A DNA stretch of 27,298 nt, from the IMG/VR virus record IMGVR_UViG_3300006752_000173, positions 1-27,298 of that record; one strand, 5' to 3'. Below the pieces are notes generated by a model that saw only the letters and a list, made by a program, of their open reading frames with translations, made no database searches and was not told the DNA's origin. Source of the DNA: a virus. Positions 1-24,885 of the stretch are shown one piece after another (position 1 is the stretch's first letter; the number at the start of each line of letters is the position of its first letter). A program made the translations under genes and the position numbers.

Positions 1-3000
1 AAAAATAAAAACTTTAGGTATATAAAAATGGTTTAAATTAAACTCATCTACTATATTAACAGTAATTTTAATTAAATTGTCATATCTTAGACTGCTCAGT
101 TTTTTACTATTTAATCCAAAATTATAAAAGCTAGAATTAAAGTAATTTTCTTTATTTTCGCTTAAAGAAGTCATTGATAAAGGATCATCTGAGTCAACAC
201 TGAATCTTGTCATATTAATAGAATTTTTATCTTTTTCAAACATTTCAGTAAACATATCATTAGTTAAATAGAAATCTAATCCTTCTTCCTCTACACCACT
301 TTTTATTCTTTTTTCTATTTCAAGATTAAAACTTATTTTACTGACTAAACTTTTGCTAAGAGAATTTATATAAAACATGTCACTAAAATTTTCTTCAATT
401 TCTTTAGTTGTTTCTTCTCCTAGTAGTGGTTTTAAATCTTCTATTTTCTTGCTAAATGTTAGTTCTTCTATACTTTTTTCTAATACTTCATCTTGATAGT
501 CTATGCAACCATTAATTATGTCTAGACTTGCTGCTTGAAGAATATCTGACCTGTACAAGCTTTTTGCTACATTATAAATGCATTTAGAATGCTTCGTATA
601 AAAGTCTTTGTAATAATCATCATCTTCAAATAAATTATCAATACTACTGTCATTATTAAAAAAGTCGTATTTTGGTGTAATATTAGAAATATTTTTCAAG
701 TAGTCTTCACTATTAATAGAAACATTTATAATATTATCCTCATATTCATAATATTTTCCAATAATTTGGTCACTTAAAGAGCTTGTGTTTCCTTTAAGGA
801 TATGCCCATTAATATTATCAGTATCATCTATACTGAATCTTCCTTTTATTGCATTTGCATTATTTATAAAAAAATCTCTTTGAATTTTATCAAAATTAGG
901 CAAATAAGCATTTTTAAACAAAGTAATAATTTCTTCAACATTTTCTAGCATATTTTCATTTTGACTTATAAAATCATCTATTTCGCTTTCATTTTGAAAG
1001 TATTGCATGTCATAGTCTTTTATGCAAAGAAGAAGCATGTTTTGTATACACTTCATAATATCATTAAATACGCTAAATTTATTACTACACACTTCATCAA
1101 ATAAGTCTTCTATTTCAATATTGTTATACCGTCTTGTAGATCTTTCAACACTCACATCGTTATATTTCGGTGTTAATCTTATCTTTATGTTTTTCGAACC
1201 AGTTATATCTAAAGTATCAGTTTTTTCAACTTGATATTTTACTAAAAAAACATTATTATCAATATTAGGAAAATTAATTGAATAAGGTACTTCTTTTATA
1301 CTATTTTTTTCTATTCTTTCTAGATTCAACTTTAAATCATCTTTTAAATATTCAGACTGTTGAAAAAAGTTATAAAATATATAGTGATAAGGAATTACAT
1401 TTGCAAAAATTGTTCCTGTAAAAACTAAATATGGCTTATTCGAACTTAAATCTGCTCCATTTGTGGCTTCTAATAGAAAATCTTTAGTTGGACTGTCTAA
1501 TTTAGGATTTAAATAATTTAAATTATAAAAACACTTGTAATCACAATTACTTGATAAATCTAAAATATTAGAATTTGAAAATACTGTATTTTTAATGATT
1601 TCTAGATTACTAGAAGAATTTAAAATTTCATCTAAATAATTGTTTAAGCTTTCTTTTGAAGAATCTGAATAGTTGCTGATTAAAACATTTTCTGGATCAT
1701 AAGAATAGTCTGATGCTTTTGATTGTCTTAAGATACTTGAAGACTTTCTGTCTAAGAATATTGCTTTTTTTAAAAATCTTTTTGTAACTATTTTTTTGTT
1801 TTCATTACTAAAGTTTACTCTATCATAATATTTAAAATATAAAGCTTGCGTTAATTTTTCTTTATAATCAACTGAATAAGTATTGTCGTCTTCTTTAGAA
1901 ATGCTATTTAATATAAATTTTAAAAATTTAGAACTGCTAAAGTACTCACATTTAGGATAATAATACGACAATAATTCTTTAAAGTTTTTCTTAATGTTTT
2001 GTCTGTTACTGCTGATGTTAATGTTTTCTCTTTTAATAGAATCAATACCTAGAAAAGTAATATCATCTACAGAATGATTACTAATGATATCAGTGTGACT
2101 ATAAATGTTGTTGTCTTTTTTGCTAAACAGTAAATCAAATAAATCAGCATTTTCATCAATTACTGACATGTTTTTATTGTTGTTTTTTGAATATGATACT
2201 AGTTTGACTTTTTTATTTGAAGAGTTTATATTCTCAATTACTTGATTTATAATTTTAAAACTAACATTTTTATTTTTTAGAAAAGATCTTTTGACTTTTT
2301 TTACATGACTGTCAATTAATATTTTATAACTCAAATTATCATTGCATTTGTCATTATTAATGTCAAATGCTTTTAACAGACTTATTTTATTCAATAGAGG
2401 ATTTTTGTTTGTATATGCTCTAGCATTGTCTATTTTAAATACTTTTTTGTTTTTATAATAAAGATGTTTGTTAAATCTAAAATTAGAACCAACAAGTTCG
2501 TCAAAACCTTCAATGCTTGAAAAGGGACTACCATTTTGATTTATAAAGTAATTATAATAATAGTCATTATTTACAGCTTTCATAGCATTTGGACAAAAAT
2601 TATAAATGCTAGGAAACAAAATATAATTTCTTAAGTCACTATTAAAATTAATATTACTGTTTTCTAAATTTTCAAGAATTGACATTAATTCTATTAAACC
2701 AACATCATCAGGATCATCGGTCCTAAATGATCTAGTATCCATGTTTTTTATATTGAAAAAAATAGCGTATAAAGGGGCAGTCCATACACTTCCTATCTTT
2801 TTTTTATCAAAAATATTACCCCAGAAAGGATAATTAGCCTGATTTGAAATTCTAATAAATTTTATAAAATCAGCACTTAGATTAGATTCTGTAATTACTA
2901 TGTGCCTCGTGACAGCTTTTTTCAACATTAGTCTTTTTAAAAATAAATCAGAGATACTTTTAAAAGCACCGTTTTCAACTGAAATGTTAGCATCATCTTG

Positions 3001-11400: not shown

Positions 11401-14400
11401 TGTCTTTTTTAAATAAGATAGCCTGACTATTGTTAACTTGAATTTCCTCATTAGTTAGTGTTATGATTCCAGAATATGTACCATGATGTCTAGATGAGTT
11501 TTTACCTGTAACAATCTTTCCTTCTTTGAAGTCTGATAGTGATCTGTTTAAGTTGTTTTTACTCCATATATTATCAAAAACATTACCTTTTGTTTGGTAT
11601 ATTGTGTTTCCTGATTTTTTAATGTAATCATCACCGATTACAACTTTTCTTATTGACTTAGAGAGATTATTTTTATACTCTATATTATTGTCTACGTAGT
11701 CTCTACCAATTAAAATTATTTCTAACTTTTCGTGTAGCTTAAATACTGTTGGCATTACTTGTCCATTAGAATTAGAAGAAACACCAAAAACAAGCTTATC
11801 ACTTGGTTTAAGTAAATAGTTTGATCTAACTGTCGTATTAAATGCATCACCTTCGTGTAGATATTTTCCTGAAAAGCTTCTATACTTTTGTATACTGTTG
11901 CTTTCTAAAAGCTCTTTATTTATTATTCGATTAGAAGAAATATCTAAATTTTTAGACCCTGTAGTTTTACCTTCAAGCACAAAAAATGAATTTTTGTAAG
12001 GTTCTGCTTGAGTTATCTCATATTTTCCGTTAGATTCTATTCTAGTTGAAAAATTTGTTGTAAGCATACTAGAAGTAAAATTATCAGTAAGCCTAAATTG
12101 TCGCATCTCAACACCATCAGTTTCACTTAACTCTAAGTAATTGAATTTGTGTGACATATTTAATGAAATTTCAGTTATTTTTACATTATTACTATCAGTA
12201 ATCCTGTTTACTTTGAAAGTATCATCTTCTCTTTTTTTAAAAATCTCTTGTGGGTCTACATACACATTTGTATTAGACCCTGACGGGTAGTGTGTATTTA
12301 TATAACCACTATCTGTAATTAGCTTTTTGCCTATTAACGCATAAAACAAAAATAAGGATATTCCTGCACTTTGATCTTCAACGCTATATGTATTCCATGC
12401 ATTTGTACCAGGTGAAAAATCGTCATTAAGACTGCAAGGCAAGTCAAAAACATTATTATCTGGGTATCTATATACAAACCTGTCAGAAAACGTTTCTTTA
12501 TCATAAACCCTTCCAAAGTCTAAAAGCTTTTTAAGGATTGAATAGTTTTGCCACATATCAAGAAATCTCAAATTTAAGTCTATTTTGTTGACTAGCAAAC
12601 TTGAATGTGCAGAGTCGACTGAGTTTCCTGTGCTATATGTTATAAAATCTCTAATGTCAACAGAAGGCTCTTGATTTAAAATTAAAACGCCTCCTTTTAA
12701 ATGAGTACTCGGGTTATTCCAGGCACCGTATATTGGATTGTTATCACTGTCTGTAGGATTTTTAAAAGAAAAAGTTATTTCTATAAAAGGAACTGTATCT
12801 ATATTGACATTGCTATTTGTATACCCACCTGAAGCATCTAAAATTTGTCTTCCTGAGCTTATTGTAAGTGCATAGTTTGTTCCTGAACCATTGTTTAATG
12901 TGTACGGTGTACTCACAGGGCCGCTAGGTATAGTATACCCTAGAATATTAGTTAATGTTGTGCCATCTGTTGTAGTAAAAAGATTTATTTTAGTATTTGA
13001 CGCAGGTGATGCTGGACTAACAACATTTGTAATAGTTTCTACACTAGTTTCTTCTGCCCGAGCAATACTCGTACTGTAAAAATTAGAACCAAACTCATAC
13101 TGCGATTCATCTAAGTAATTCTTGTTTGAAAAAGTATTGTTTTTGCAAAAACTCCTAACAACAAAGTCTTTAGGCGAGTTAATGTCTAAATGAAAGTCAC
13201 TTTGCCCACTTACAGAAACTGCTGAATTTACAGGCACAACGTCAGTGTTGACATGCAAGTCAATATTTTTTAAAACGCTAGGATCAAAGTTTAGACTATT
13301 TTTTTTAGACGTGATAAGCATGTTTGAATAAGTAACAAGTTCTCTTCCTCTTTCTAGATTTAGATTGTTCGTACTTTCTATCTTTATTTTAGCAAAAACA
13401 TTGTTAACAGTATTTAAGTCTTCTTTAAAATCGTTTGTACCTGAGCTTTCGTATAAGTCTCTTTTTTTATAGTATAGATTATCAACAAAGCTGGCATCTT
13501 CTGAACTAGTATTTAAATCTAAATAGCAAAATCTAGATTTATTAAAGTTTGACTCATTAACTAGATCAGTATTACTAGATAAATTATTATACTCATCAAT
13601 ACTATATAATGCATTATTTTCTACTAGATAACTTTTTAAAACAAGTTTTGTTTGATTATTTGGGACCTCATAAGTGCTTAATTCACCTGTTAAATCTTCA
13701 ATGATAGAATTATTATAATTTAAAAGTTGAATGTCTTCTAGAGTATTTGCAAGTAAAGATTTACTTTTTAGTTTGTGATCATCATGACTTGAAAAAAGAT
13801 ACGTATAATGATTGTTAGCTTCAAAACTAATTTTATTTTGAATGAAATTTTCATTTTCTCTTTCGTTTAATAAAAAGAATGTTACATTATTTGCAATATA
13901 CTCATATATTGCATCATCTTTAAAAAAGTTTGTTGATGAGCCAAAAGAAGAACCTTCATCTATTCTATAACCTAAGTTTCTATATCTAAAGCCGAATTCT
14001 GAAAGATTGGCTACATCACTTTGGCTATTGTCTTGTAAAAACCCACTATAGAAATTTCCGTTATTAACAGGCATTTCTCCTTTTGAAGTAAATTTACCTT
14101 TTATAATCATTTTTTCTAATAAGAAATCTTTAGCTATATACTTTGACATGTCTATCAAATGATCATCTGCAGGTTGCCATATGGCTTTATAAGGAAAACC
14201 ATAAGAGTCAGAAATCTGGCTGATCATTGATTTATTTTCATCTTCAGAATTTATGTTAGATAGTAGACTACCATCATTTCTAAAGCTAGGTGTTGTCATT
14301 AAAGGCTTGTTATAGTGAAAATACTTAAACCTTTTATGATTATTTACATTAATTTTTCTTAAATCAATTTCTTGACTACTGTCTACACTAGGATCTAAAA

Positions 14401-15709
14401 ATATGTAATTATTAGGTATTTGAGATTCAATTGTGTTATCATTTATTTTAGCACCAGAATATGCATTTTCAGCAGCGTCTAAGTAACTCCATCTTTTGTT
14501 TTTATTGTTCCAATATGCAGTAGGCATATGATGTGAGCTGTAACTTTCTTTATACACACCTTTAAGAAAGTTTAAGAATCTAGTATCATAAATCTTGTTT
14601 TTTGAACTTAATGAGTCGTTAAAGTCTGCTTTGTTATTTGACATATTATTGTACAGATTAACAAAAGAAAATTTAGTATTCATTAAGTGTAGATTAAAAT
14701 CTTCTGAAAAGTCTAATTCTATTTTGATTTGTTTTTGTTGCCCTAGGGAATAGTTTTTTGAAATTTTATCGCTATCAATAGTCTCAGTATAAAAGCTAGA
14801 TCTTTCATCTTCTTCTTCAAAATAATAACTTTCTTCTCTAAAAGGTTCAAATTTTTCTTCAAATCTTTTTTGTTTTAAAATATGTTCTATATTTCTGCTT
14901 GAAACTAATTTATTAGTTATAAAAGTGTTATCTATTTTATTAGGACTACTAAAAACTCTTGAATTATGTAAATCATATGTTTCAATAAAGGAATCATCTG
15001 CAACTGAAATTGTGCTTTGATAATCAGGATCTGTAGTGTCTATTAAATCGCTAGCTGTAGTAATATAGAATTTGTCTGCTATGTTTGTTTGCTTTAGAGG
15101 CAAACCGACAGGAATATTTACATTATTAAATTCAGAAAATTCTATTACATTAGTTTCATCAAAAATATGATTAAAATTAGCTAATTCTTTTCCTGTTGTT
15201 ATCTTAGAAGCAGGTAAAGTACCAATTTCTGAACTTCTTTCTCTTATTGAATTTTTTAATGAAACTGATAAAGAACCTGAATTATTGTTGCTTTTTAATG
15301 AACCAGCACCAATTTTTGGAAAAACAATTAAATTATTTATATTTGTACTGTCAAATTGAAAATTACTGTTAACACTATCAGCAGCTAATTTAGCTTTTAT
15401 TATGATTTTGCTATTTAATGATTCACTTTGATAGTTTGAAAAATCAACTTCACTAACAATTATAAAACCACTTTGTATTGAAATCAAGTCAGTGTTAGCT
15501 GAATCATAAAAACTTATGCTGTTTGTATTTATTTTTTGATTGATATAAAAGCTTTTTAAAATATCTTTACTGTTTTTATATACAACGTTCCAAGTTTTTA
15601 CAGCTAAAACTTCAAAAGTTATTGTGTAAAAATAATTTACAGAGTCAGCTTGCACATTTGTTATTTTTGACTCTATAAAAACATTTTTTTTACTATTGAC
15701 TCTGCTCAT
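8459..15709 (-). CDS. 2416-aa giant phage structural protein with one Calx-beta/adhesin-type repeat
   Basis: One uninterrupted frame of 2416 codons, the largest gene in the window. It starts MSRVNSKKNVFIESKITNVQ, and no signal peptide is visible. About residues 500-535 hold YGFPYKAIWQ followed by a segment ending in DFLLEKMIIKG, and about 1298-1310 hold LLKPSDKLVFGV. Both patterns resemble stretches I recall from very large structural proteins of other big phages. About residues 890-1005 form a Ser/Thr/Gly/Pro-rich island unlike the Asn/Lys-rich flanks. About residues 2037-2141 form one Calx-beta/adhesin-type repeat with VTEGTLSTNSLTFTTVNW and QKQSVTITGINDN. The start shares one base with the stop of the 335-aa gene (TAATG) and has a strong AGGAGA site, implying translational coupling. 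Most likely a baseplate-periphery, fibre or decoration protein that contacts the host; the exact role is unknown. Confidence 0.85.
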   Translation of the reverse strand: MSRVNSKKNVFIESKITNVQADSVNYFYTITFEVLAVKTWNVVYKNSKDILKSFYINQKINTNSISFYDSANTDLISIQSGFIIVSEVDFSNYQSESLNSKIIIKAKLAADSVNSNFQFDSTNINNLIVFPKIGAGSLKSNNNSGSLSVSLKNSIRERSSEIGTLPASKITTGKELANFNHIFDETNVIEFSEFNNVNIPVGLPLKQTNIADKFYITTASDLIDTTDPDYQSTISVADDSFIETYDLHNSRVFSSPNKIDNTFITNKLVSSRNIEHILKQKRFEEKFEPFREESYYFEEEDERSSFYTETIDSDKISKNYSLGQQKQIKIELDFSEDFNLHLMNTKFSFVNLYNNMSNNKADFNDSLSSKNKIYDTRFLNFLKGVYKESYSSHHMPTAYWNNKNKRWSYLDAAENAYSGAKINDNTIESQIPNNYIFLDPSVDSSQEIDLRKINVNNHKRFKYFHYNKPLMTTPSFRNDGSLLSNINSEDENKSMISQISDSYGFPYKAIWQPADDHLIDMSKYIAKDFLLEKMIIKGKFTSKGEMPVNNGNFYSGFLQDNSQSDVANLSEFGFRYRNLGYRIDEGSSFGSSTNFFKDDAIYEYIANNVTFFLLNERENENFIQNKISFEANNHYTYLFSSHDDHKLKSKSLLANTLEDIQLLNYNNSIIEDLTGELSTYEVPNNQTKLVLKSYLVENNALYSIDEYNNLSSNTDLVNESNFNKSRFCYLDLNTSSEDASFVDNLYYKKRDLYESSGTNDFKEDLNTVNNVFAKIKIESTNNLNLERGRELVTYSNMLITSKKNSLNFDPSVLKNIDLHVNTDVVPVNSAVSVSGQSDFHLDINSPKDFVVRSFCKNNTFSNKNYLDESQYEFGSNFYSTSIARAEETSVETITNVVSPASPASNTKINLFTTTDGTTLTNILGYTIPSGPVSTPYTLNNGSGTNYALTISSGRQILDASGGYTNSNVNIDTVPFIEITFSFKNPTDSDNNPIYGAWNNPSTHLKGGVLILNQEPSVDIRDFITYSTGNSVDSAHSSLLVNKIDLNLRFLDMWQNYSILKKLLDFGRVYDKETFSDRFVYRYPDNNVFDLPCSLNDDFSPGTNAWNTYSVEDQSAGISLFLFYALIGKKLITDSGYINTHYPSGSNTNVYVDPQEIFKKREDDTFKVNRITDSNNVKITEISLNMSHKFNYLELSETDGVEMRQFRLTDNFTSSMLTTNFSTRIESNGKYEITQAEPYKNSFFVLEGKTTGSKNLDISSNRIINKELLESNSIQKYRSFSGKYLHEGDAFNTTVRSNYLLKPSDKLVFGVSSNSNGQVMPTVFKLHEKLEIILIGRDYVDNNIEYKNNLSKSIRKVVIGDDYIKKSGNTIYQTKGNVFDNIWSKNNLNRSLSDFKEGKIVTGKNSSRHHGTYSGIITLTNEEIQVNNSQAILFKKDTVLPSLGKVFNDCLSLKTIENNDLNDKSTLNILISESFENIDNSINVINKWHKTYPFHTFKSFFNNLENRSEDDNTFSNIPNENSKDILVLFDSNSYKPVNSLREFNNIATANFSLYDNSYSTSIKNDVISNIKKHGQTIREFTLPSSGLNSYQQGIKIQRVKDLRVWRENTKKFVEFIENDKIIEKYDSVFSNINNEDKLLIQTASLQYFDSYLNILENKNLSNNSTFYEYKDISRESLKEYKNDTQSSSENFIDFNPQWHIVFDLSFLAFSNLLDLNQTLNHEKITRDYLNKNIFLFLYENLSDNKPKCKTAKIIKSSSNDNKVTIVIPLYYWETLEIDDTFLSTNNSAYVKYGKKEYQEDHNFYSYSNNNQPAWYARLNNSLKIIDTEHIYKPFVNSSEHSNLNAVNSKYYPLPDPINNSFGTGNADIQKASKVPYTFEELSNLNITNDQSGGFINSLHDPSDKLILNSEDRQFYISNVKFKTDSINTPTYSKESNEYSNLDNFYKNSFHNRFLTGEKYFENNLDEIDKRKDTMLKASDEAESFYLNEKIYRSKIYKKSENNFIKTKYYLLYKINNMYTNNTSFYNSGKFKVEISENDTSNSGGQIVTSEVGDTGVFFVVLTSKPSSNVTVTISGLDVTEGTLSTNSLTFTTVNWNQKQSVTITGINDNLSESGSSESYTLTLTSTSSDSDFNNLTESLSVLNMHSSAPLYFNNYGETKYSAIEILGVDTDYSLFEKLKYDDMFIVGDLENKDIIRVYEPKLIENNYLKNSMNFKSEDYVPYFEIDLSHKSKGFTNVNNGINQILYSGIKLASSLDITTNLDVSEFTPGSLGSTIYRINEENRNAYRGFEVQEDAVKNFFYGFSKDTFRYPLKSLDGFKYGVEAGNKQSFRYHYNISRFGHFSDKVSGSTNTATIFKDPVNSQIIEKYPVEKKFVDVNYLRVNVTDNLNTYNTDLYSRSTHPYIENSSDQISQYYSS
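9285..9600 (-). other. Calx-beta/adhesin-type beta repeat module inside the 2416-aa protein
   Basis: About residues 2037-2141 of the giant protein carry GDTGVFFVVLTSKPSSNVTV, then the segment GTLSTNSLTFTTVNW and a QSVTITGINDN strand. This is the classic shape of tandem repeats in bacterial surface adhesins and secreted proteins (TTEGTVSPSSLTFTTSNW-type with a VTVTGVDD strand). It appears once here. GC is locally high: I count 23 of 60 bases as G or C in 9541-9600, against 8 of 60 in 10501-10560 of the same gene. This fits a transferred domain with an immunoglobulin-like beta-sandwich fold, possibly for surface or glycan binding; the ligand is unknown. Confidence 0.75.
12690..13050 (-). other. 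Ser/Thr/Gly/Pro-rich, GC-raised segment in the 2416-aa protein
   Basis: About residues 887-1007 include NVVSPASPASNTKI, FTTTDGTTLTNILGYTIPSG and ASGGYTNSNVNI, with many Ser, Thr, Gly and Pro. The surrounding protein is dominated by Asn, Lys, Asp and aromatics. I count 25 G or C in 12901-12960, about three times the density of AT-rich stretches elsewhere in the gene. It looks like an inserted beta-rich module, but I do not recognise the family. Confidence 0.5.
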
Positions 15710-16716
15710 TAAATAAGTTCTCCTAAGTATGCAATAGAAAGAGGTAAACCACCATTAATTTTATTACTGTCGTTTCCTGCGCTACTGTACACTGCTTCAT
15801 CATCGTGATCTAAGTTTATTGTATTTGTCTGTCTAGAATCATCAAAAGGTACAATGTCTAGTTGATCATCATTATAGTAATATGCAATATTTGTTAATCT
15901 GTAAGAATGCTCGTTAACATTTTCACCTGATACACTATTTACTACATTTCTACCGTTAAAAATTGTTCTTTGATAAGCATATTTTCTATTAAAGCTAACA
16001 ACATCATTTGTTGGTAGATCTTCTATAATAGAATCCGAAAAAGACTCTATTTTTTTGTTACTTTTTTCTAATTCCCTTATAGAAATCTTATTAGAAATAA
16101 AAATTTCTCTATTTCTTGCATCTCTACCGTTTTTTATTATTTCAACATTCATACCTTGTAGTGGCACTTCAGTAGTCAAGTTTCCGTTAATAGACTCTAA
16201 AGTGCCAAACACACTTATGTTTGAATTAAGCTTCGATACTGAGTAGTAACCGTAATAAAACGGATATTTTTTATCTTTTGGTAACTTAAAATATTCATTA
16301 ACATCTTCTAGTCTGTCTAAATCTTCAAAAGGAATATAATCATCAAAAATAGGATCAGGATTATTCATACCTAAAGTTTTCACATAAGGTACAGGATTCA
16401 TCCCAACTTTTATTTCTTTACCTTTATAACTACTGTTTTCATTATAAGCACTAAATTTTTCAAATATACTTTCATCTTTATTGTAAAACTTTGAATTTAA
16501 TATTTCGTTTTTTGTAAAAGACGAATAATATCCTGCAAATAAACTTACAAAAATAATTTTTTTACCATTATCAAAATAATTTATCTTATTAATAATATTT
16601 AGATTTTCTTTGCGAGATAACAAATTTAAACTTACTGGCGAAACAGGAACAAAACCTTCAGAGAAAGTTATTTTTCTATCTATTTCTGACGGTGTTATAT
16701 TAAGGCTTTCTGACAT
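15709..16716 (-). CDS. Unrecognised 335-aa protein of the tail/baseplate operon
   Basis: The frame runs from MSESLNITPSEIDRKITFSE to AYLGELI. I do not recognise its family. It has a hydrophobic strand near residues 53-62 (KIIFVSLFAGYYS), a Pro/Asp-rich middle (MNPVPYVKTLGMNNPDPIFD) and no membrane helix or catalytic motif, so a small beta-rich structural or adaptor protein is plausible. It sits between the LamG protein and the 2416-aa giant. Its stop codon overlaps the giant's start by one base (TAATG), so the two products are probably made in linked amounts and may interact. The ribosome site is weak: a purine run AAGAAGAAA upstream of the ATG at 16716, after a 29-nt gap. Confidence 0.85.
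   Translation of the reverse strand: MSESLNITPSEIDRKITFSEGFVPVSPVSLNLLSRKENLNIINKINYFDNGKKIIFVSLFAGYYSSFTKNEILNSKFYNKDESIFEKFSAYNENSSYKGKEIKVGMNPVPYVKTLGMNNPDPIFDDYIPFEDLDRLEDVNEYFKLPKDKKYPFYYGYYSVSKLNSNISVFGTLESINGNLTTEVPLQGMNVEIIKNGRDARNREIFISNKISIRELEKSNKKIESFSDSIIEDLPTNDVVSFNRKYAYQRTIFNGRNVVNSVSGENVNEHSYRLTNIAYYYNDDQLDIVPFDDSRQTNTINLDHDDEAVYSSAGNDSNKINGGLPLSIAYLGELI
15719..15724 (-). promoter_or_regulatory. Strong ribosome binding site (AGGAGA) for the 2416-aa gene, inside the upstream gene
   Basis: The minus strand reads AGGAGAACTTATTTAATG. The AGGAGA lies about nine bases before the ATG at 15709-15707 and within the last codons of the 335-aa gene. It is the best Shine-Dalgarno match in the window and fixes the start of the giant gene. 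Together with the TAATG overlap it suggests termination-reinitiation coupling. Confidence 0.75.
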
Positions 16717-16745: not shown

Positions 16746-19700
16746 TTATTCTCTGTTTTTATTGTATGCTGAACTTCTTGTTGATAAAATACTTTCTCTT
16801 GAATATGATAGCTTAGAAGCACGATCATAATCTATGATAGTATTTATGCTGTCTTTGTTTTTATATTCATACTTATGTCTTTCTAAAGCATGCGACTCGT
16901 AAACAAGATTAAATCCTTCAAATCTAACTCTACTTGGAACAATATCATACAAAATAGAGTTCATAATATTATCAAAATATTTAAATACATTCCCAATAGA
17001 TGAGTAGTTAATATACTCCGAGTCAGAAAATTTTTCAAAATACAAGTTCTTTATTTCTTCTAGATTCTTATATGAATACTCATATATGCTCATGTTATTG
17101 TTTATTTTACTTGAAAAATCATTCAAGTCAGAAATGATTTTTGATATGTCACTATTAATAGTTTTAACAATTGACATATCAATGCTAACTCTATTTACTG
17201 TATCATAATTAAAAAACTTTGGGACTGAATTTGACGGAAAATTATTAAAATTATTAGTAGCTTCTCTGTTTTCTTCATTACTATAACTAATAATATTTAC
17301 TTTGTTATTTGAGTTTGGTTCGTCAATTTTAATACTATCTTCTTTGATAGTTATAAAACAAGGATTAATTACAATTTTATTGACAAGATTATTATTTTTA
17401 GTTTTTACTGTACAAGTATTTAAATTTTGACTTTGTGTTTCTTTGTTATTTGAAATATCATCTATGTTCCAAGTAAAGATACTATTGTTTGAACTATCAT
17501 AATTCTGTTTGTTTTTTACTTCAATGTCTATAATTAGTGTCTTAAGAGGATCAAAACCAGACTTGCTAAAATTTTTAATATTTTTTGTGTGTGCTAAAAT
17601 TTCTTTATTATTCAGACAATGCTTCCACATTCTTATCTTAATAACTTCACCTTGAAAAGTAGAGTTACTTGTACCTGAAAGCGCATCATTTAAATGATTG
17701 CTAGTGCTATATTTATAGTTTCCTATTCTAAAATTTAGTTTCTTATCATTTGAAAAAAGATAGTTGTTGTTAGATATTTCATTTGATAAGTTTGCTACTG
17801 TAACACTACTGGAGTTTGTAATTGCTTTTGATACATCTATTTGTTTTGAAACACTATCTATAGACGCTGTGTATGTAAGTTTGTTATCTTCTCTTTTTTG
17901 AGTTATTACGAGATGTTTTTCAATATCATAAATGTTTACATTTTGTAATGTTAACGTCGTATTTGAACTTTGACTCTGTATAGGCTGAATTTCTATTATT
18001 ATATTACCTAAATTATTGTTAAAACTATTAATTCTGTCATATTTAGCAAAAATGATGGCGCCATCGTTTGTATTAGCGTTTGTGCTACTACTTAAAACAA
18101 ATAATGTCTGTGTGTCATTGTAAGATATTTCTCCTTCCAGTTTTTTATCAAATGCAGAAAGATTGATGTTTTTTCTTTTGTTAATACTGTTATTAAATTT
18201 AAAAAATAATTCAATACTCCAGTCATTTTTTCCTATTCCATTTTCCAATGCATTATCTGAAGAATTAGGGAGTAAATTCTGTTTGTTTATTTTAGATCTA
18301 ATATCTAATATTTCAAGTAAAAGTTTATTTTCAGAAATACCTTCATTTACTTGAAATGTTGGGGCTCCTGATATATTGTGTCTATTTGAGAAATTAACAG
18401 TGAATGTTTGCAAAGAATTTAATTTATAATTATTTTCTTGTGTTATTGTATTGTTTTGTGAATATTCTTTAATATCAATAAATTTTGTGTAATCGATACC
18501 AAAAGAATTAAAGCAAGATTCAATGCTTTTAATTGTTCCTTTTGATGTTAAAAAGTCTCTTGTATTAATTAGAAATCTTTGCCAAAGTAGATTTTGTATT
18601 TTTCTTATACTCACTTCAGATATGACATCATCAAAATTTAAGTTTTCATTGTTTAGTTTGTTTTTTGTAATAGAAGGTAATACTTCTTTAAAATCAATCC
18701 CGTAAATCTTACATAATAGAGGTATTTGCATTGATACTATTGACTTTTTGTTTACAGAATCATAGTCAATATTCATAATTCCTGTTATAGAATTTGTGTA
18801 TAATTTTAATTTATCAAAAAACTTTGCCCATATTAAAACAATGTTTACTAAGTCTGTATTTGCAGGAACTTTAGGAGTTATGTTACTAGTCGTGAAAATT
18901 AAATTATTATCTTCTATTTGATTGTGACTAGAATAATTCGACGTATTACTATAAACAGGAAGATTTTGGAAATTTGACGAGTCTAAGAAGTAATGTCTAG
19001 GCATTAATTTAAAAATCAAATTAGGATTACTTAAATCATATTCCTTCGCTATCTTCATTAAGCTTTCTCTTGCATTACTAATATTTGTATAAGAAGAATT
19101 TAAAACAGGCGAGTCGATAAGCTTTTCTAACTTTAAAGGAGTATTTAAGTTCACCTTGTGACCTGTAGTATTGCTTAAGACAGTAGGCGAACTTGATAAA
19201 TTGTTATAGCTTATTCCATGAATTCTGTTTCCGCTATAGTCAATAGACAAACAACTGTTCGTATAACTCCCAGAAGGTTCATTGAATCGCAGATAAAGTC
19301 TTAATCCTTTTCGGGAAAAGACGTTTCTATGCATATCTTTTTTAACATCTCGAGCACTTCTTAACTTAAAGTACATTTTAAAGTCATCAATTCCGCAAGT
19401 AGAATTATTAAAACCTGTAAGAGTATTTATTGTGTTATTGTTTTCATCAACGTAAAAGATACCACCTAAAGTTAGAGGAATGTTTTTTCCTTTAAATTCC
19501 TTAGGGAAACTTTTATTTGAAATATTGTTTTCAACAAGAATTGTTTCTTTTTTAAATTGTCCGTCTAAGACAAAATCTATTTTCTTTGTTTTTTCAACTG
19601 ATATTCCAATGTGATGCCACTCATCTAACAAACTGACTTCTAATTGTAATTTATAGTGTGATTTTTCTCCGTTTATAATAACAATAAAGTTTAAAAAATA

Positions 19701-20360
19701 GTCATCACTATCCTTGCTCAAACTACAGATATAACCGTTTTTAATAACATTGTTATCAAATTGTATTTTTTTAAATACAATTTGATTATTATTATTACTT
19801 AAACTGTCACTAGTAGGCATCTTGAGCCAAAATTCAAAAGAAAATCTTTGGGATAAAGGGTTTAGTATTCCAATTTCTCTTTCTTTGGTGTCTTGTAGAA
19901 CTTTGCCTTGTTCATCAAAAACTGTAACACAACTTTCGCCATCGAATAAAACATAACCTTTAGATTTCGGGTATACTTTTTCTAATATGAAATTAGTGTA
20001 TCCATCATTCTTGTTAAAATATTTTATATTTTCAAATTCATCTTTATCATAAGGTATATTATGTATTCTATCAAAAGAAAACGTTACTTTATTTACTGCT
20101 GAATCGAAAAAAACATGATTTTTTAAATCTCTATAGTCTATATTTCCTAATTGTTGTGTTGTAAAAAGCCCGGAATAGCCGTCAACTCTTTGTAACAATA
20201 TTGATAAATCTTTTTGAGAAAGCTTATTACTGTCTATTATATTAAATGACTTTATTAGGTCTGTAAGATCATCTGCAGTTTTTTCTGTAAGATTTAACTT
20301 GTTGTTTTTATTGATACTTTCAATTGTATCTTGATGTAATCTATCATTTTCGAAAGCCAT
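16746..20360 (-). CDS. 1204-aa phage structural protein with two LamG-like lectin domains
   Basis: Two LamG/concanavalin-like domains are visible. The first is about residues 165-340 (FSFEFWLKMP at 173-182, DEWHHIGISV at 247-256, CGIDDFKMY at 322-330). The second is about 712-925 (DWSIELFFKF at 713-722, GEVIKIRMWKHCLN at 904-917). Between them, about 590-635, is the segment LLWQRFLINTRDFLTSKGT plus KSIESCFNSFGI. This resembles an LL-TKGT--SI--L---YGI pattern I recall from large phage structural proteins. The C-terminal segment about 1140-1164 (VPSRVRFEGF, VYESHALERHKY) matches another recurrent ending. LamG domains usually bind glycans or act as beta-sandwich structural units, so a peripheral baseplate or fibre role in host recognition is likely. 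The start overlaps the preceding stop (TAATG). A perfect 14-bp inverted repeat lies in the first LamG coding region. Confidence 0.85.
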   Translation of the reverse strand: MAFENDRLHQDTIESINKNNKLNLTEKTADDLTDLIKSFNIIDSNKLSQKDLSILLQRVDGYSGLFTTQQLGNIDYRDLKNHVFFDSAVNKVTFSFDRIHNIPYDKDEFENIKYFNKNDGYTNFILEKVYPKSKGYVLFDGESCVTVFDEQGKVLQDTKEREIGILNPLSQRFSFEFWLKMPTSDSLSNNNNQIVFKKIQFDNNVIKNGYICSLSKDSDDYFLNFIVIINGEKSHYKLQLEVSLLDEWHHIGISVEKTKKIDFVLDGQFKKETILVENNISNKSFPKEFKGKNIPLTLGGIFYVDENNNTINTLTGFNNSTCGIDDFKMYFKLRSARDVKKDMHRNVFSRKGLRLYLRFNEPSGSYTNSCLSIDYSGNRIHGISYNNLSSSPTVLSNTTGHKVNLNTPLKLEKLIDSPVLNSSYTNISNARESLMKIAKEYDLSNPNLIFKLMPRHYFLDSSNFQNLPVYSNTSNYSSHNQIEDNNLIFTTSNITPKVPANTDLVNIVLIWAKFFDKLKLYTNSITGIMNIDYDSVNKKSIVSMQIPLLCKIYGIDFKEVLPSITKNKLNNENLNFDDVISEVSIRKIQNLLWQRFLINTRDFLTSKGTIKSIESCFNSFGIDYTKFIDIKEYSQNNTITQENNYKLNSLQTFTVNFSNRHNISGAPTFQVNEGISENKLLLEILDIRSKINKQNLLPNSSDNALENGIGKNDWSIELFFKFNNSINKRKNINLSAFDKKLEGEISYNDTQTLFVLSSSTNANTNDGAIIFAKYDRINSFNNNLGNIIIEIQPIQSQSSNTTLTLQNVNIYDIEKHLVITQKREDNKLTYTASIDSVSKQIDVSKAITNSSSVTVANLSNEISNNNYLFSNDKKLNFRIGNYKYSTSNHLNDALSGTSNSTFQGEVIKIRMWKHCLNNKEILAHTKNIKNFSKSGFDPLKTLIIDIEVKNKQNYDSSNNSIFTWNIDDISNNKETQSQNLNTCTVKTKNNNLVNKIVINPCFITIKEDSIKIDEPNSNNKVNIISYSNEENREATNNFNNFPSNSVPKFFNYDTVNRVSIDMSIVKTINSDISKIISDLNDFSSKINNNMSIYEYSYKNLEEIKNLYFEKFSDSEYINYSSIGNVFKYFDNIMNSILYDIVPSRVRFEGFNLVYESHALERHKYEYKNKDSINTIIDYDRASKLSYSRESILSTRSSAYNKNRE
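19755..19786. repeat. Perfect 14-bp inverted repeat, 4-nt loop, inside the LamG gene
   Basis: Arms 19755-19768 (ATCAAATTGTATTT) and 19773-19786 (AAATACAATTTGAT) are perfect reverse complements around TTTT. The stem is AT-rich and lies in codons for QIVFKKIQFD. With this base composition such a repeat may arise occasionally by chance, so a function is uncertain. Confidence 0.6.
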
Positions 20361-22390
20361 TAAACTACCCTAACTAAATATTTTTCGTTAAAAATAAATT
20401 TATCTGTATTAGTTGTTATATCTTTATATCTAAACTTAAAATTCAATCTCATGTTTTTAAACATTTTTGGAACAAACAAATCAAAAACATATTTTTCACC
20501 ATCATAAAACATTAATGTTGCATCATCATAATCTACTAAAACTTTGTTAGTTTCTACATCAACAACAGAATATTTTACGCTTCCTATGTTTTCGCTTGGG
20601 AGTTGATATGGCACTTTAACTGAGTCATACTCTTTTTTAGTATCAACAAAATATACTTTCAATGAATAAACAGAGTCATTTGCAATCACATCATTTTCAT
20701 CAATAGATATTACAGTAATTAAGTTTTTAAAATCAACTTCAGATGGTTTTTCGCTAGTATTGAAATTAATATCTTGAGAGTGAACTTGATACTCTATTAA
20801 TTCATATGCATCATCACTACCACTTCCTATACCAGTTGCAGTAAAAATAGTATTTTCATTATTATTAGCTGCTCCTATTGCTACAAAGCTTGTATTTGTA
20901 GACGTGTTTATTTTATAACGTCGACCTATAACAAAACTTCCTGCAGATACAAGATTCTCAGGGTCTTCGTCATCTAACCAGTACCAGTGTGCTTTTGTTT
21001 TTAAAACATTATTCTTGATCAAAGGTGATATTGTTGAGCTATATCTATTTAGATTAAATAATGTTTCTTTTATGCCTAATAATGTTGTTCCACTAAAATT
21101 TGAAACGCTAGAAGATGAATTATCATTTAATATAGTTACTGTTTCATCACTAGATTTAATTCTAAACTTTAGGTTGCATCTATCATTAGGTTTGTTAAAG
21201 TCAACAGTATAATTTCCAGAGTTATTATTATATAAATAGATTTTTTCTTGCTTCCCTAGGAATCTTTCTTTGTTAAAAGAATTAGTGGGAATATGATAAG
21301 AAGAATCATTTATTTTAATTTGTAATTGCGGTATTAATTTTTTATTTAATAAATGTCGACTCCCGAATCTTTTTGCGAAGTAAGACTTATTGTTAAAAAG
21401 TAAAGAATCAGGAAATTTTATCAAAATACCTTTGTCGTCTGGGTTATCTAGCTCAATTTGTGCTTTAATATATTCAGTTACATCAAGAGATAAGTCTTCA
21501 TTCCCTAAGGTAAAAGTGTTTAAAGGATCTGGCGTTCCTAAAGATTCTATATCTCCACTTGCGTGTTTTGTAATATAACTAGAAATATTCCAAGTATTGT
21601 TTATAGAATTATCATTAATACTTTCAAAGTTACAAACATCACTATCAGAAAAATGAATTGTATCTTTTCCTAAGCCTTCTTCGAATTCTTTTAAAAGCTT
21701 GAATGCAGTCAACTGAAAGTCTTTAGGTTTTACAACTCCAGACGTTACGTCCTTTAAGATTAAATGTGCAGTTAGACTATTAAATGCGCCTTCTTGGGCA
21801 AGATTAGTACCTATATTCCAGTTTTGTTTAAAAGAGGCTAGGTCAAATTTTAGTAATGCTGAACTATAATCAATTCTTGCAAACTTAGTAATAGATGCGC
21901 CTCCAACATGAACCATACTGTTTGGAACTGTAAATGTAGTATCGCCAGATGAACCTGCTTTGTTCTGTTTTAATACAAGCTCATTGTTTGAATTACTAAA
22001 AGCAGTTATGCCTAATGTTAAATCGTTGTTAAACGTAGAAACATTATTAATTGCATCTGAAATTCTTGAAGCATAACTATTGTTTGTTACTCCTTGGGTT
22101 CCAATGATTACTTTGTCGTTAGCTAGACTGCCATCGATTGTATTTGAATTTGTTTTAAAAATAAAGTTTACGGATCTACCTTCTGAGTCAGTTAAGTTCA
22201 TTTCTTGATCATTATCAATAGAACCTATAAATTTAAATGCTGTCCAAGAGTGTGAATTTTCATTTTCGTTATAAAGTTTAAATAAATCTAAAGTTGCAGC
22301 TTGACCAACATTGGCTTTTGCACCATCATTTTTAATTGTTTTTAAATTTGTAACGTATGTATCTTTTTCAGGTTCTAATATAATAATCAT
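20360..22390 (-). CDS. DNRLRE-like 676-aa tail/baseplate protein with two inserted shuffled modules
   Basis: The N-terminus (EPEKDTYVTNLKTIKNDGAKANVG) and the later ALLKFDLASF, AHLILKDVTSG and FQLTAFKLLKEFEEGLGKDT resemble a DNRLRE-type beta-sandwich, normally read as D-Y-----------G, then LL-FDLS-----I--A-L-L, then a V--L---W-EG pattern. About residues 60-166 interrupt it with a separate module (LTDSEGRSVNFIFKTNSNTI, DKVIIGTQGV, LKQNKAGSSGDTTF) that I recall from many marine phage proteins. About residues 481-530 hold a second widespread phage module (SAGSFVIGRRYKINTSTNTS, TIFTATGIGSGSDD). The C-terminal part, about 545-676, is a beta-rich domain of unknown family. An AAGGA site precedes the start at 22390. 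It directly follows the gp6-like gene, so it is likely a baseplate or fibre component. Confidence 0.8.
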   Translation of the reverse strand: MIIILEPEKDTYVTNLKTIKNDGAKANVGQAATLDLFKLYNENENSHSWTAFKFIGSIDNDQEMNLTDSEGRSVNFIFKTNSNTIDGSLANDKVIIGTQGVTNNSYASRISDAINNVSTFNNDLTLGITAFSNSNNELVLKQNKAGSSGDTTFTVPNSMVHVGGASITKFARIDYSSALLKFDLASFKQNWNIGTNLAQEGAFNSLTAHLILKDVTSGVVKPKDFQLTAFKLLKEFEEGLGKDTIHFSDSDVCNFESINDNSINNTWNISSYITKHASGDIESLGTPDPLNTFTLGNEDLSLDVTEYIKAQIELDNPDDKGILIKFPDSLLFNNKSYFAKRFGSRHLLNKKLIPQLQIKINDSSYHIPTNSFNKERFLGKQEKIYLYNNNSGNYTVDFNKPNDRCNLKFRIKSSDETVTILNDNSSSSVSNFSGTTLLGIKETLFNLNRYSSTISPLIKNNVLKTKAHWYWLDDEDPENLVSAGSFVIGRRYKINTSTNTSFVAIGAANNNENTIFTATGIGSGSDDAYELIEYQVHSQDINFNTSEKPSEVDFKNLITVISIDENDVIANDSVYSLKVYFVDTKKEYDSVKVPYQLPSENIGSVKYSVVDVETNKVLVDYDDATLMFYDGEKYVFDLFVPKMFKNMRLNFKFRYKDITTNTDKFIFNEKYLVRVV
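20801..20950 (-). other. Widespread phage beta module (AGSFVIG-type) inside the DNRLRE-like protein
   Basis: About residues 481-530 read SAGSFVIGRRYKINTSTNTS, then FVAIGAANNNENTIFTATGI and GSGSDDAYEL. The pattern (AG-FVIG--Y-I-----T-F--IGA--N--G--F-ATG-GSG) is one I recall in tail and neck proteins of many unrelated phages. GC is 19 of 60 in 20821-20880 by my count. It is flanked by WLDDEDPENL and LIEYQVHSQD, which read as host-protein sequence. Confidence 0.75.
21893..22213 (-). other. Shuffled LTD-EG / GTQGV module inserted in the DNRLRE domain
   Basis: About residues 60-166 carry MNLTDSEGRSVNFIFKTNSN, DKVIIGTQGV, ISDAINNV and LKQNKAGSSGDTTF. This order (LTDAEG--V-F-F, then IG-QG, then A-AINA, then LTQ--AGA-GNT) is a repeat-type module common in marine phage and metagenomic structural proteins. 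It separates the first strand of the DNRLRE-like domain from its ALLKFDL continuation. I count 25 G or C of 60 in 21901-21960, well above neighbours. Confidence 0.75.
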
Positions 22391-22402: not shown

Positions 22403-24274
22403 TTAACTTACAGCAATAAATATGTCTTTAAACGTGTATCTCATTTCAAATATTCCGCCTCGTGGCGGGTGTATCAATCCGTCTGAGTATAATGTTTGTG
22501 GATTAAAAACATTATCATTGTAAGATAATACATCTAAAAGATCATTGTCAAAAAAATTGTCTTCTGAAGTTTTGGAAGATATCATTGCAATCCTTGGTGT
22601 TATTATTGATTCAACACCTTCAGTTAGTTCAATAACTTGAGAGATTTGATTTACATTTATCGGACTTCCAATTTGCATTAAATCAAATCTCATGTTCTCT
22701 ACTATTCTAGAATTAATATCAAAAATTAGTCTTTCAACATCAGTGCCACTTTTTGCTCTTATTTTAAATCTTAGACCAAAGTTAAAAACTGGGACATCGA
22801 GAATATTAAAATTATCACCTATAAGTCGATATTCATTAATATATTTTGATAAATTAGTTTTTATAGCGTCAGACGCTTCTGTATAAAATCCTTCTGAATC
22901 AATACATGTTACAAATAAATCTTTAGAACTACTAGAATAAGGATTGTCTAAAGCAACTGCTTTGTTTATCCTACCAAAGTCACTAGGCATAGTTAGTATT
23001 CTTGAAATTAAGTCTTCATGTGTAATTATTCTAGACTGAGCCCTTATTGAATTTGGTATTTGTAGTTTCATTTCTTCTAGACTTAAAGGTTGTGTACCAC
23101 CTATAGACTTGTTTTCGTTAAAAACACTCACTGATTCTAAAATGTTTGTAGTGATTGTGTCGTAATTATCATCTAAAATTGACAAGTTCGGATAAGATAA
23201 GATAGGATCTCCAACTAACGTCTTAATTGACTTTACAGGAACATTATGAGTTGATCCACCACCATGTTTATATGTTATTGTAAGGGTTTTTCCTATTGGT
23301 GAGATGCCTAAAGTATTAGATTGCAAAAGAGTACTAGGATCTAGACTTATTCTATTTAATACGTCTTTGTTTTTCAATGGAAGCAAAAGATCTTCATTAT
23401 TTAAAAAAGCGTTGCTCTTTAAAGACTTGCCGCTACCGTTACCAAATCTTAGGCTAGTTTTTCCTGTGTTAAAATTTTCTTCTCTTATAAATCTATGAAA
23501 AGAAGGAACTGTTATTAAGTAGTCATCATTTGAATCTTTTACTTTTTTAAACACTGTAGATTGACTTAGAAATTCTACTTCATAATACTCATTGTTTTCA
23601 TCATCGATTACACTAATAATACTTGTTATATTACTTTTTTCTAAATCTACTTTGACAAAAAAACTTTCACCGCTATCTGCAATTTTAAAAATTTCTTGAC
23701 TAACTATACCAGATATACAAAGACCTTTTTTAGTTAGGAATAGACTTGTAACAGCACCACTTGCAGACTCTTCAGCAACTTCTTGTTCATAATTTTCTTT
23801 TGTAAAGTCTAAATCTTCTTGCAAAGAAAATACGACACCTGTTTCTGATATTAGTTGTGTGCCTTTTTTTATTATAGGTAAATGTGTCTTATAAGGTTTT
23901 AAGTCATAGTCGAAACTAGAAGGATCTCGATCTACCTCTATAGTAAAAGTAACGTCTACTGAAGAGGGTGATGCCTTAGAACCTTTTATGTTTGCTCTTC
24001 TTAGATGTTTTACAATATTATCAGGATCTACAGCAGTTGTATAGTCTAGTTCATTAAATTGTTGTTCTGCATAATAAACTAAAGAGTCCCCTACAATTGC
24101 TGCAAAATCTAACAGCATACCACCTAAAGAAACTTCTGAAAAGTCTACTATATTATCTTTATAGAATAGATTAGCATATTGTAAAAGATCTTCTCTAAAG
24201 TCTACAAAAGTCTGATTTGAAAATTGTTTATTGTTTTGATTTTTTAAGTAATTTTCTAACTTACTAATTGGCAT
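22403..24274 (-). CDS. Baseplate wedge protein, gp6/J-like
   Basis: The 623-aa product follows the gp6/Baseplate_J plan. The N-terminal part has FREDLLQYANLFYKDNIVDF and EVSLGGMLLDFAAIVGDSLV (residues 26-66), then NELDYTTAVDPDNIVKHLRR (74-93), a typical wedge-protein start. Further markers are RFGNGSGKSL (276-285), NSIRAQSRIITHEDLISRIL (408-427), MQIGSPINVNQISQVIELTEG (around 533-553) and the end HPPRGGIFEMRYTFKDI. In contractile-tail systems this protein dimerises, with gp7 or alone, to form the inner baseplate ring that triggers sheath contraction. It sits 17 nt after the gp25-like gene, with AAGGAT as ribosome site close to the ATG at 24274. The gp25-gp6 order is conserved across T4-like and P2-like tails. 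It lacks signal peptide and membrane helices, as expected for a cytoplasmically assembled virion protein. Confidence 0.9.
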   Translation of the reverse strand: MPISKLENYLKNQNNKQFSNQTFVDFREDLLQYANLFYKDNIVDFSEVSLGGMLLDFAAIVGDSLVYYAEQQFNELDYTTAVDPDNIVKHLRRANIKGSKASPSSVDVTFTIEVDRDPSSFDYDLKPYKTHLPIIKKGTQLISETGVVFSLQEDLDFTKENYEQEVAEESASGAVTSLFLTKKGLCISGIVSQEIFKIADSGESFFVKVDLEKSNITSIISVIDDENNEYYEVEFLSQSTVFKKVKDSNDDYLITVPSFHRFIREENFNTGKTSLRFGNGSGKSLKSNAFLNNEDLLLPLKNKDVLNRISLDPSTLLQSNTLGISPIGKTLTITYKHGGGSTHNVPVKSIKTLVGDPILSYPNLSILDDNYDTITTNILESVSVFNENKSIGGTQPLSLEEMKLQIPNSIRAQSRIITHEDLISRILTMPSDFGRINKAVALDNPYSSSSKDLFVTCIDSEGFYTEASDAIKTNLSKYINEYRLIGDNFNILDVPVFNFGLRFKIRAKSGTDVERLIFDINSRIVENMRFDLMQIGSPINVNQISQVIELTEGVESIITPRIAMISSKTSEDNFFDNDLLDVLSYNDNVFNPQTLYSDGLIHPPRGGIFEMRYTFKDIFIAVS

Positions 24275-24291: not shown

Positions 24292-24885
24292 TTATTTAGA
24301 ACTATTTATAATTAATTTTAATACTCTTGTTTTTTTATCTACTAAAGGTATAAAATAAGAAATTGATATCTCAAAAATACTATCTTTTGAGATATCAATT
24401 TTATTTTTTTCGTCTAATGTAGGTATGTTAAGATTAGTTATCACTGAGCCTTGTTTATTTAAAAATTCATATGCAACATTATTTGCAGAATTTTGTTGTT
24501 TACTCTCAGAACCTAATTTAGAAGAATAAAAATCGGCTAAGTCTATAGAAGGCATATACTTCTTTACAACTTCTTTTATTTGCTCAGATGCTAAATTAAC
24601 TATTTCATCGTCTGTAAGGGTATTGTCTGAATATATTTCTTTTAACTGAGTTCCATAGTCTGGAAAGCCAAGCCTCTCGCCTTTTTGTGTCATAATTAAA
24701 TTTTTTAAGTTATCCTCAACTTGACTTAAGACGTCAAAGTGCATTTTAAATAAAGTTTCTTCTTGTCTGTTACCTTTTTCTAAAGGTGTTTTGATCCCTA
24801 TTGGCTTAATAGGCGTTACAGTTAAGGAAGACAGATAGTCTGCTCTTCTTTGAACATCTCTTACAACACTTCCTAATTCAGACAT
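24292..24885 (-). CDS. Baseplate wedge protein, gp25/gpW-like
   Basis: The 197-aa protein contains the core GPW/gp25 signature: DNLKNLIMTQKGERLGFPDYG (about 58-78), then TQLKEIYSD, and EIVNLASEQIKEVVKKYMPS (94-113), followed by a beta hairpin (SIFEISISYFIPL, 169-181). Family members link the sheath-initiating central part of the baseplate to the wedge. The usual core is about 100-130 residues; this one carries an extra N-terminal region (1-45) and a Ser/Gln/Asn-rich insert near 122-137. The start at 24885 is supported by an AAGGA site. A perfect 17-bp inverted repeat lies within codons for KIDISKDSIFEISIS. It forms an operon pair with the following gp6-like gene. Confidence 0.9.
   Translation of the reverse strand: MSELGSVVRDVQRRADYLSSLTVTPIKPIGIKTPLEKGNRQEETLFKMHFDVLSQVEDNLKNLIMTQKGERLGFPDYGTQLKEIYSDNTLTDDEIVNLASEQIKEVVKKYMPSIDLADFYSSKLGSESKQQNSANNVAYEFLNKQGSVITNLNIPTLDEKNKIDISKDSIFEISISYFIPLVDKKTRVLKLIINSSK
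24360..24401. repeat. Perfect 17-bp inverted repeat, 8-nt loop, inside the gp25-like gene
   Basis: Arms 24360-24376 (AAATTGATATCTCAAAA) and 24385-24401 (TTTTGAGATATCAATTT) are exact reverse complements around ATACTATC. On the mRNA (minus) strand this predicts a 17-bp, mostly A-U hairpin about 70-110 nt before the gene's stop codon. It has only three G-C pairs, so a strong intrinsic terminator is unlikely. A regulatory dyad, an RNase III-type site or a mobile palindrome are alternatives. Confidence 0.8.

Follow-up and report, generated by a model that had tools for sequence, protein, structure and literature searches.

A module in a loop of a CBM96/DNRLRE-like domain of a phage protein, with signs of exchange between phages

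Has a folded module been set into a loop of another domain in a phage protein, and has it since passed between phages? The question is raised by a 676-aa open reading frame (ORF), the host ORF, in a virus record of 27,298 bases. The whole record is called the window here, and its large genes lie on the minus strand (Table 1). A preliminary description had noted a segment with the motifs LTDSEG, IGTQGV and LKQNKAG ahead of the ALLKFDL strand, and we find it there, at residues 60-166 (21893-22213, minus strand), in what is called M1 below. Our main reading, to which we give a probability of about 0.7, is that M1 sits in a loop of a CBM96/DNRLRE-like sandwich, was gained and has been exchanged, and is putatively the exposed, variable part of a tail or baseplate protein that binds glycans. 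Related phages lack M1, hold other versions of it or carry it elsewhere, so M1 behaves like an exchangeable cassette.

Among named isolates, Flavobacterium immuto phages and Microcystis phage Mel-JY01 come nearest to the window's baseplate wedge protein, with 24-25% identity. Mel-JY01 and immuto 3-5A each have a smaller, M1-free relative of the host ORF directly downstream of the wedge gene. Two other large ORFs of the window carry features of their own. A 1204-aa ORF (16746-20360, minus strand) matches Laminin_G_3 (concanavalin-like, PF13385) above the cutoff, at E 1.4e-6, and a 2416-aa ORF (8459-15709, minus strand) contains a stretch that resembles Calx-beta type repeats when the sequence is read by eye (SENDTSNSGG...ESYTLTLTS).

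Table 1. Positions of genes, domains and sites in the window; residues are those of the protein concerned.
Feature	Position	Strand	Remarks
gp25-like baseplate protein	24292-24885	-	PF04965, E 4.8e-5, 23.5 bits, below the 27.2-bit cutoff
Baseplate wedge protein	22403-24274	-	phrog_6, E 9.4e-11
Host ORF, 676 aa	20360-22390	-	CBM96/DNRLRE-like N-terminal domain and C-terminal part; downstream of the baseplate genes
First half of beta-sandwich, residues 1-46	22253-22390	-	module-free profile, model positions 1-46
Inserted module M1, residues 47-169	21884-22252	-	absent from the module-free profile
Second half of beta-sandwich, residues 170-364	21299-21883	-	module-free profile, model positions 48-242; CBM fold match
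Segment of foreign ancestry, residues 23-169	21884-22324	-	nearer L010 than L015, the closest in the host domain
Module M2, about 51 aa, residues 481-531	20798-20950	-	present or absent among relatives
Second gene, 335 aa	15709-16716	-	without M1 in the window; homologues with M1 in five records
Site in second gene, residues 79-106	16399-16482	-	M1 instead in L030 and L032; blastp blocks end at 78-81 and resume at 107

The inserted module and the folds of the two domains

M1-free relatives were compared with the window protein by sequence and by profile. Their profile covered residues 1-46 and, as a separate piece, residues 170-364, and this two-piece match places M1 at about residues 47-169. 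The preliminary description had taken the segment for a piece set into a loop of a DNRLRE-like sandwich; the M1-free relatives agree with this, since they bridge both sandwich halves with 12 residues or fewer. Its claim that GC is about twice the local level failed: GC is 33.3% in the segment, 28.1% elsewhere in the ORF and 26.8% in the window, and 4.3% of 321-nt windows taken every 10 nt are at least as GC-rich. With 33.3% against 28.1%, a GC anomaly as a mark of recent transfer was ruled out. M1 is one open frame within the ORF. We met no mobility gene of its own and no terminal repeats of a self-mobile element, and no direct or inverted repeats of at least 12 nt with arms at both M1 borders were found in the window.

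The structure of the N-terminal 375 residues was predicted with a pLDDT of 92 and a pTM of 0.89, and the host domain in it is a two-sheet beta-sandwich of the CBM96 kind. VIA-align matched the model range 1..361 to the chondroitin-sulfate CBM 8wab_B (Z 17.8, rmsd 2.5, 172 residues aligned) and to the alginate CBM96 7vbo (Z 15.8, rmsd 3.1, 176 residues aligned). A Foldseek search with the N-domain gave a best E of 0.005 at probability 1.00 and nothing at E <= 0.001. The sequence searches were negative. The window ORF had no NCBIfam match at E <= 10, no Pfam match at E <= 1 and nothing credible in PHROGs; its relatives had no NCBIfam match, and the Pfam matches of nine of them were weak and scattered. 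Nothing significant came from a PDB sequence search with the N-domain profile.

CBM96 is linked to the DNRLRE domain in the account of PMC9971899. The DNRLRE identity proposed in the preliminary description stands by fold and not by sequence, and we call the host domain DNRLRE-like without filing it as a member, because no curated sequence model from Pfam or NCBIfam matches it. The host domain shares the fold of the alginate-binding CBM96 module TM6-N4 (7VBO, PMC9971899) and differs in that 7VBO has no M1-like insert; no CBM96 sequence model matches the host domain. M1 is lacking from both solved CBM chains, of which 172 of 176 (8wab) and 176 of 182 (7vbo) residues are aligned.

The structure predicted with the module included divides in the same way: the CBM match runs over 1..361, and quite other proteins match about 45..174. 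A segment integral to the DNRLRE fold, the outcome that would have spoken against an insertion, did not appear. Predicted alone from residues 52-172, M1 gave a pLDDT of 88 and a pTM of 0.83, and its predicted strands and helix cover residues 63-161, within 47-169. The range of about 45..174 matched the A-1(L) sheath (Z 8.4, rmsd 2.3, 92 aligned) and the phiTE contracted tail (Z 8.2, rmsd 2.5, 88 aligned), modest matches of which 8.4 is the best. Others, at Z 5-7.3, were the Bas63 baseplate, Mu, XM1, Milano, E217, FliD, flagellin and T4 gp11, and M1 alone fell in the same structure class with a best Z of 7.4 (Bas63 connector, rmsd 2.6, 84 aligned); a Z under 8 may reflect just a common arrangement. 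Searches of other kinds added little. Foldseek with M1 alone reached a best E of 0.33 and nothing significant, and a PDB sequence search with the M1 profile likewise gave nothing significant. The window's M1 copy had no credible PHROGs, Pfam or NCBIfam match, phrog_165 included. Two M1 copies matched phrog_165 (tail sheath) weakly (E 0.015 and 0.010) and also phrog_18828 (unknown function; E 0.0013 and 0.006).

By its predicted fold, M1 looks like the sheath/FliD lateral domain, and the models suggest a domain that folds on its own and is shaped much like the lateral insertion domain found in tail sheaths, flagellin and FliD. A lateral beta-sandwich with a helix is reported from the sheath, the podovirus nozzle, an auxiliary capsid protein, FliD and flagellin in the relevant part of PMC12846349, and the InD of XM1 is given as an example of a sheath insertion domain in PMC10457771. 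Like the sheath domain, M1 is modelled as a beta-sandwich with a helix, inserted in another domain of a (putative) virion protein. Unlike it, M1 has a CBM-like host and not a sheath, and exchange and several homes are seen for it; M1 shows no significant sequence similarity to the solved lateral-domain chains. The FD domain of the crassvirus auxiliary capsid protein gp36 is described in PMC10172136 as FliD/FliC-like and inserted in another domain, with chains 6IWY and 4NX9 named, and M1 matches these two chains as well. In that description the gp36 FD domain belongs to the capsid and its host domain is of the PH type, in contrast to M1. With M1, a CBM-like host would join the class of sheath, FliD and flagellin insertion domains.

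In our main reading, M1 would be a surface-exposed, changeable part of a putative glycan-binding tail or baseplate protein, and its exchange would alter what the virion touches and leave the sandwich undisturbed. If M1 is exposed, adsorption or host range could be predicted from its subtype, and the prediction tested. The main rival to this function is structural contact. M1 might be a clamp or spacer that touches baseplate or fibre proteins, and its exchange would then follow these partners and not receptors or surfaces. The analogy comes from A-1(L), where, according to PMC10966104, the wedge insertion domain either keeps hold of the long tail fibre or fills a cleft of the hub, and from the statement in PMC12846349 that the sheath lateral domain takes no direct part in contraction. 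We regard a clamp as conceivable and somewhat doubtful, and continue with M1 as an exposed, variable part.

Presence and absence of M1 at the loop site

The preliminary description had looked to related phages for DNRLRE-like proteins without the insert, and such proteins were found. Of 77 distinct ORFs, a set that contains the window's own, 25 are without M1. The spacer before the S.LLKFDL strand has at most 12 residues in these 25 ORFs and at least 91 in the other 52, with none intermediate, and a short M1-free junction reads, for example, ...LDLFKLYGITKTNNIKNTELSRLLIHFDL. The 77 ORFs combine relatives from a search with the part after the module (the 80 most similar of 112 confirmed loci) and ORFs from other searches; since some of the latter used M1 itself, the ratio of 52:25 is not a frequency. 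Near-copies among the 77, such as L115 and L116, were kept.

On a tree of the host domain (the part after M1; 74 of the 77 ORFs, with L045, L061 and L074 dropped), the presence of M1 is one change, on a starred branch with support 95. Alignment set A4 was made without L001 (the window again), L045, L058, L061 and L074. Set A5 was made without nine divergent copies (L034, L042, L048, L051, L052, L053, L057, L065 and L070) and without L004, L115 and L116, in which M2 is nested.

We read the history of the site as a single gain, after which M1 kept its place. The tree alone gives no direction, and its one change would suit a single loss just as well, with M1 ancestral and the M1-free state derived. 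We consider this loss improbable and prefer a gain, because the isolate relatives (two phages) and the solved CBM chains 8wab and 7vbo are without M1. No M1 was found anywhere in Mel-JY01 when the whole record was searched, and tblastn with two M1 copies against 50,697 phage records gave no match at E <= 1. Two matches to M1 among genome_contigs, L145 and L146, were taken as chance; by eye, the ORF in which they lie resembles an asparagine-synthase-type enzyme.

Exchange of M1 versions

The preliminary description had proposed domain shuffling at the DNA level, and recombination scans favor this, as they put exchanged segments at or near the M1 edges. The window is 84% identical to L015 and 54% to L010 in the host domain, against 47% to L015 and 63% to L010 in M1. 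DNA identity to L015 drops to 38-55% at residues 61-120, and the blastn match of L015 on the window halts at 22229 and picks up at 22010. Identity to L010 is 92-95% at residues 21-60, 67-72% at 61-120, 95% at 121-140 and mostly 51-72% beyond residue 160. Exact stretches shared by the window and L010 measure 38 bp upstream of M1 and 26-29 bp within the C-terminal third of M1. A segment scan of informative sites found the window L010-like at 104/135 sites inside residues 23-169 and at 51/310 outside. When L017 or L016 replaced L015, the L010-like segment covered residues 5-162 and 11-173. In the same scan, L067 was compared with L069, its sister in the host domain, and with L104 and L038, its relatives in M1; this gave residues 51-174 and 52-174, and each result of these scans was reached in 0 of 2000 permutations. 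The borders of the L067 mosaic are those of M1; the exchanged piece of the window starts further upstream than M1 does, at residue 23.

AU tests were made on 37 rows with groups that were picked after the trees were seen. M1 rejected the window with L015 (p 0.0019) and the window with L015, L016 and L017 (p 0.0007), and the host domain rejected the window with L010 (p 3.5e-5). L067 with L069 was rejected by M1 (p 1.5e-6), and L067 with L104 and L038 was rejected by the host domain (p 6e-35). The group of L067, L069 and L055 was not rejected by M1 (p 0.15).

Two M1 subtypes can be told apart, one with a long DGS-type loop and one with a short loop, and 37 of the 50 M1 rows were classified. On the host tree, subtype changes 12 times among these 37 rows, at least seven of the changes being forced by starred branches. 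Shuffled subtype labels gave a mean of 12.5 changes, and counts as low as the observed one in 238 and 247 of 500 shufflings. Subtype changes equal those of shuffled labels, so M1 subtype carries no phylogenetic signal on the host tree. For 45 M1 rows (L004, L115, L116 and L017 left out), we counted crossings, in which M1 and the host domain clearly favor different relatives. There were 7 in 45 for M1, which stand for fewer events because partners count each other, and 0 in 45 when a segment of the host domain served as control. Plain agreement of nearest neighbours, weak when taken alone, was 20/45 for M1 and 26/45 for the control.

These results bear on vertical inheritance, in which M1 would be a fast-evolving family elaboration of the sandwich and its subtypes the product of repeated indels and diversifying selection. 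All M1-bearing ORFs have M1 at a single site, as vertical inheritance would have it, and in most close relatives M1 and the host domain show similar identity to the window. However, M1 of L067 has 81% identity with the M1 of L038 (host domain 46%) and 39% with the M1 of L069, its sister on the host tree (host domain 78%), the segment scans and AU tests contradict vertical descent, and M1 occurs in a second gene. We judge it very unlikely. An assembly chimera as the source of the window's mosaic is scarcely credible: every M1-bearing sequence seen is a metagenome contig and the two isolate relatives have no M1 in the homologous protein, but a separate contig, L006, whose source may be the same sample or a related one, runs through both junctions with a single mismatch over 4151 bases, and L067 has a similar mosaic with borders at the M1 edges.

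By these computations, M1 versions have passed from phage to phage through recombination whose borders lie at or near the edges of the domain. We infer homologous recombination through conserved coding flanks, probably NVGQAATLDLFKLYNEN upstream and ITAFSNSNNELVLKQNKAG near the C-terminal end of M1. Domain mosaicism in tail proteins is already known, and PMC10684548 reports ongoing domain exchange in phage receptor-binding and baseplate proteins. The exchange described here is likewise ongoing domain exchange in a tail-region protein; the tail examples presented in PMC10684548 swap terminal domains, whereas M1 is a loop-inserted domain swapped in place. What is added is the CBM-like host, a single-site series of empty, occupied and exchanged states, and the extent to which exchange has gone. 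With one site found empty, occupied and re-occupied, the uptake of a whole folded domain by a loop and its later exchange are open to quantitative study.

M1 in other genes and the second module M2

M1 was sought in other genes of 50 records, in which Mel-JY01 was the sole module-free record. Homologues of the window's second gene were found in 15 of the 50. In ten of these, the gene 2 product has 295-362 aa; in the other five (G007, G008, G045, G046 and G047), it has 472-497 aa and carries M1. L030 and L032 are the loci of G007 and G008. All five records carry M1 in the first gene too, and on the host tree they and the fragment L029 make up a single clade (support 86). Since the gene 2 copies of M1 cluster together (support 97, starred), the simplest reading of the sequences would be one old transfer of M1 into gene 2. 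Partial M1 matches were found in a 1462-aa ORF of G019 and in a 1930-aa ORF of G047 that is related to the window's 2416-aa ORF, and a weak partial match in a 1787-aa ORF of G013. L143 (L203:1621-3792), a first-gene ORF of 724 aa, has a second, weaker M1 copy at residues ~388-504. Fainter signs of a second M1 were seen in L137, L140 and L141, at E 0.04-0.15.

M2, with the sequence pattern AGSFVIGRRYKI...TSFVAIGA...FTATG, occupies the window's site in 11 of the 74 tree rows (L005 twice) and is nested in M1 in three (L004, L115 and L116); L017 stops short of the site, and its score of no M2 is uninformative. M2 is also found in a third gene of two records (L191 and L198). A collection search in viral contigs confirmed at least 458 places. 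The best 80 loci among these held 81 ORFs with M2, in 28 groups by flank similarity, some of which may be fragments of one protein, and up to seven copies in one ORF. For three M2 copies, PHROGs gave no match at E <= 1 and Pfam none above the cutoff, and M2 is thus a widespread module undescribed in the family libraries tried (PHROG and Pfam). It occurs in the named phage records MW202615.1, MW202481.1 and OP053362.1 (Cyanophage S-TIM54), where the annotations over it are b-glycanase, phage stabilization protein and virion structural protein.

A wider claim can be put forward tentatively. The loop might be a dedicated exchange site, through which a FliD/sheath-like cassette of at least two subtypes would circulate among divergent contractile-tail phages by recombining in its conserved flanks and would serve a CBM-like tail protein as a variable surface cassette. 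M2-like in-frame modules would invade the same genes and the cassette itself, which would amount to a continuous colonisation of virion genes. We hold this to be possible at most, and less probable than our main reading. As a separate observation, L013:4794-7025, whose sister L014 lacks it, has an extra insertion of ~100 residues of another kind around KNVKDNFYFLDPDNLD.
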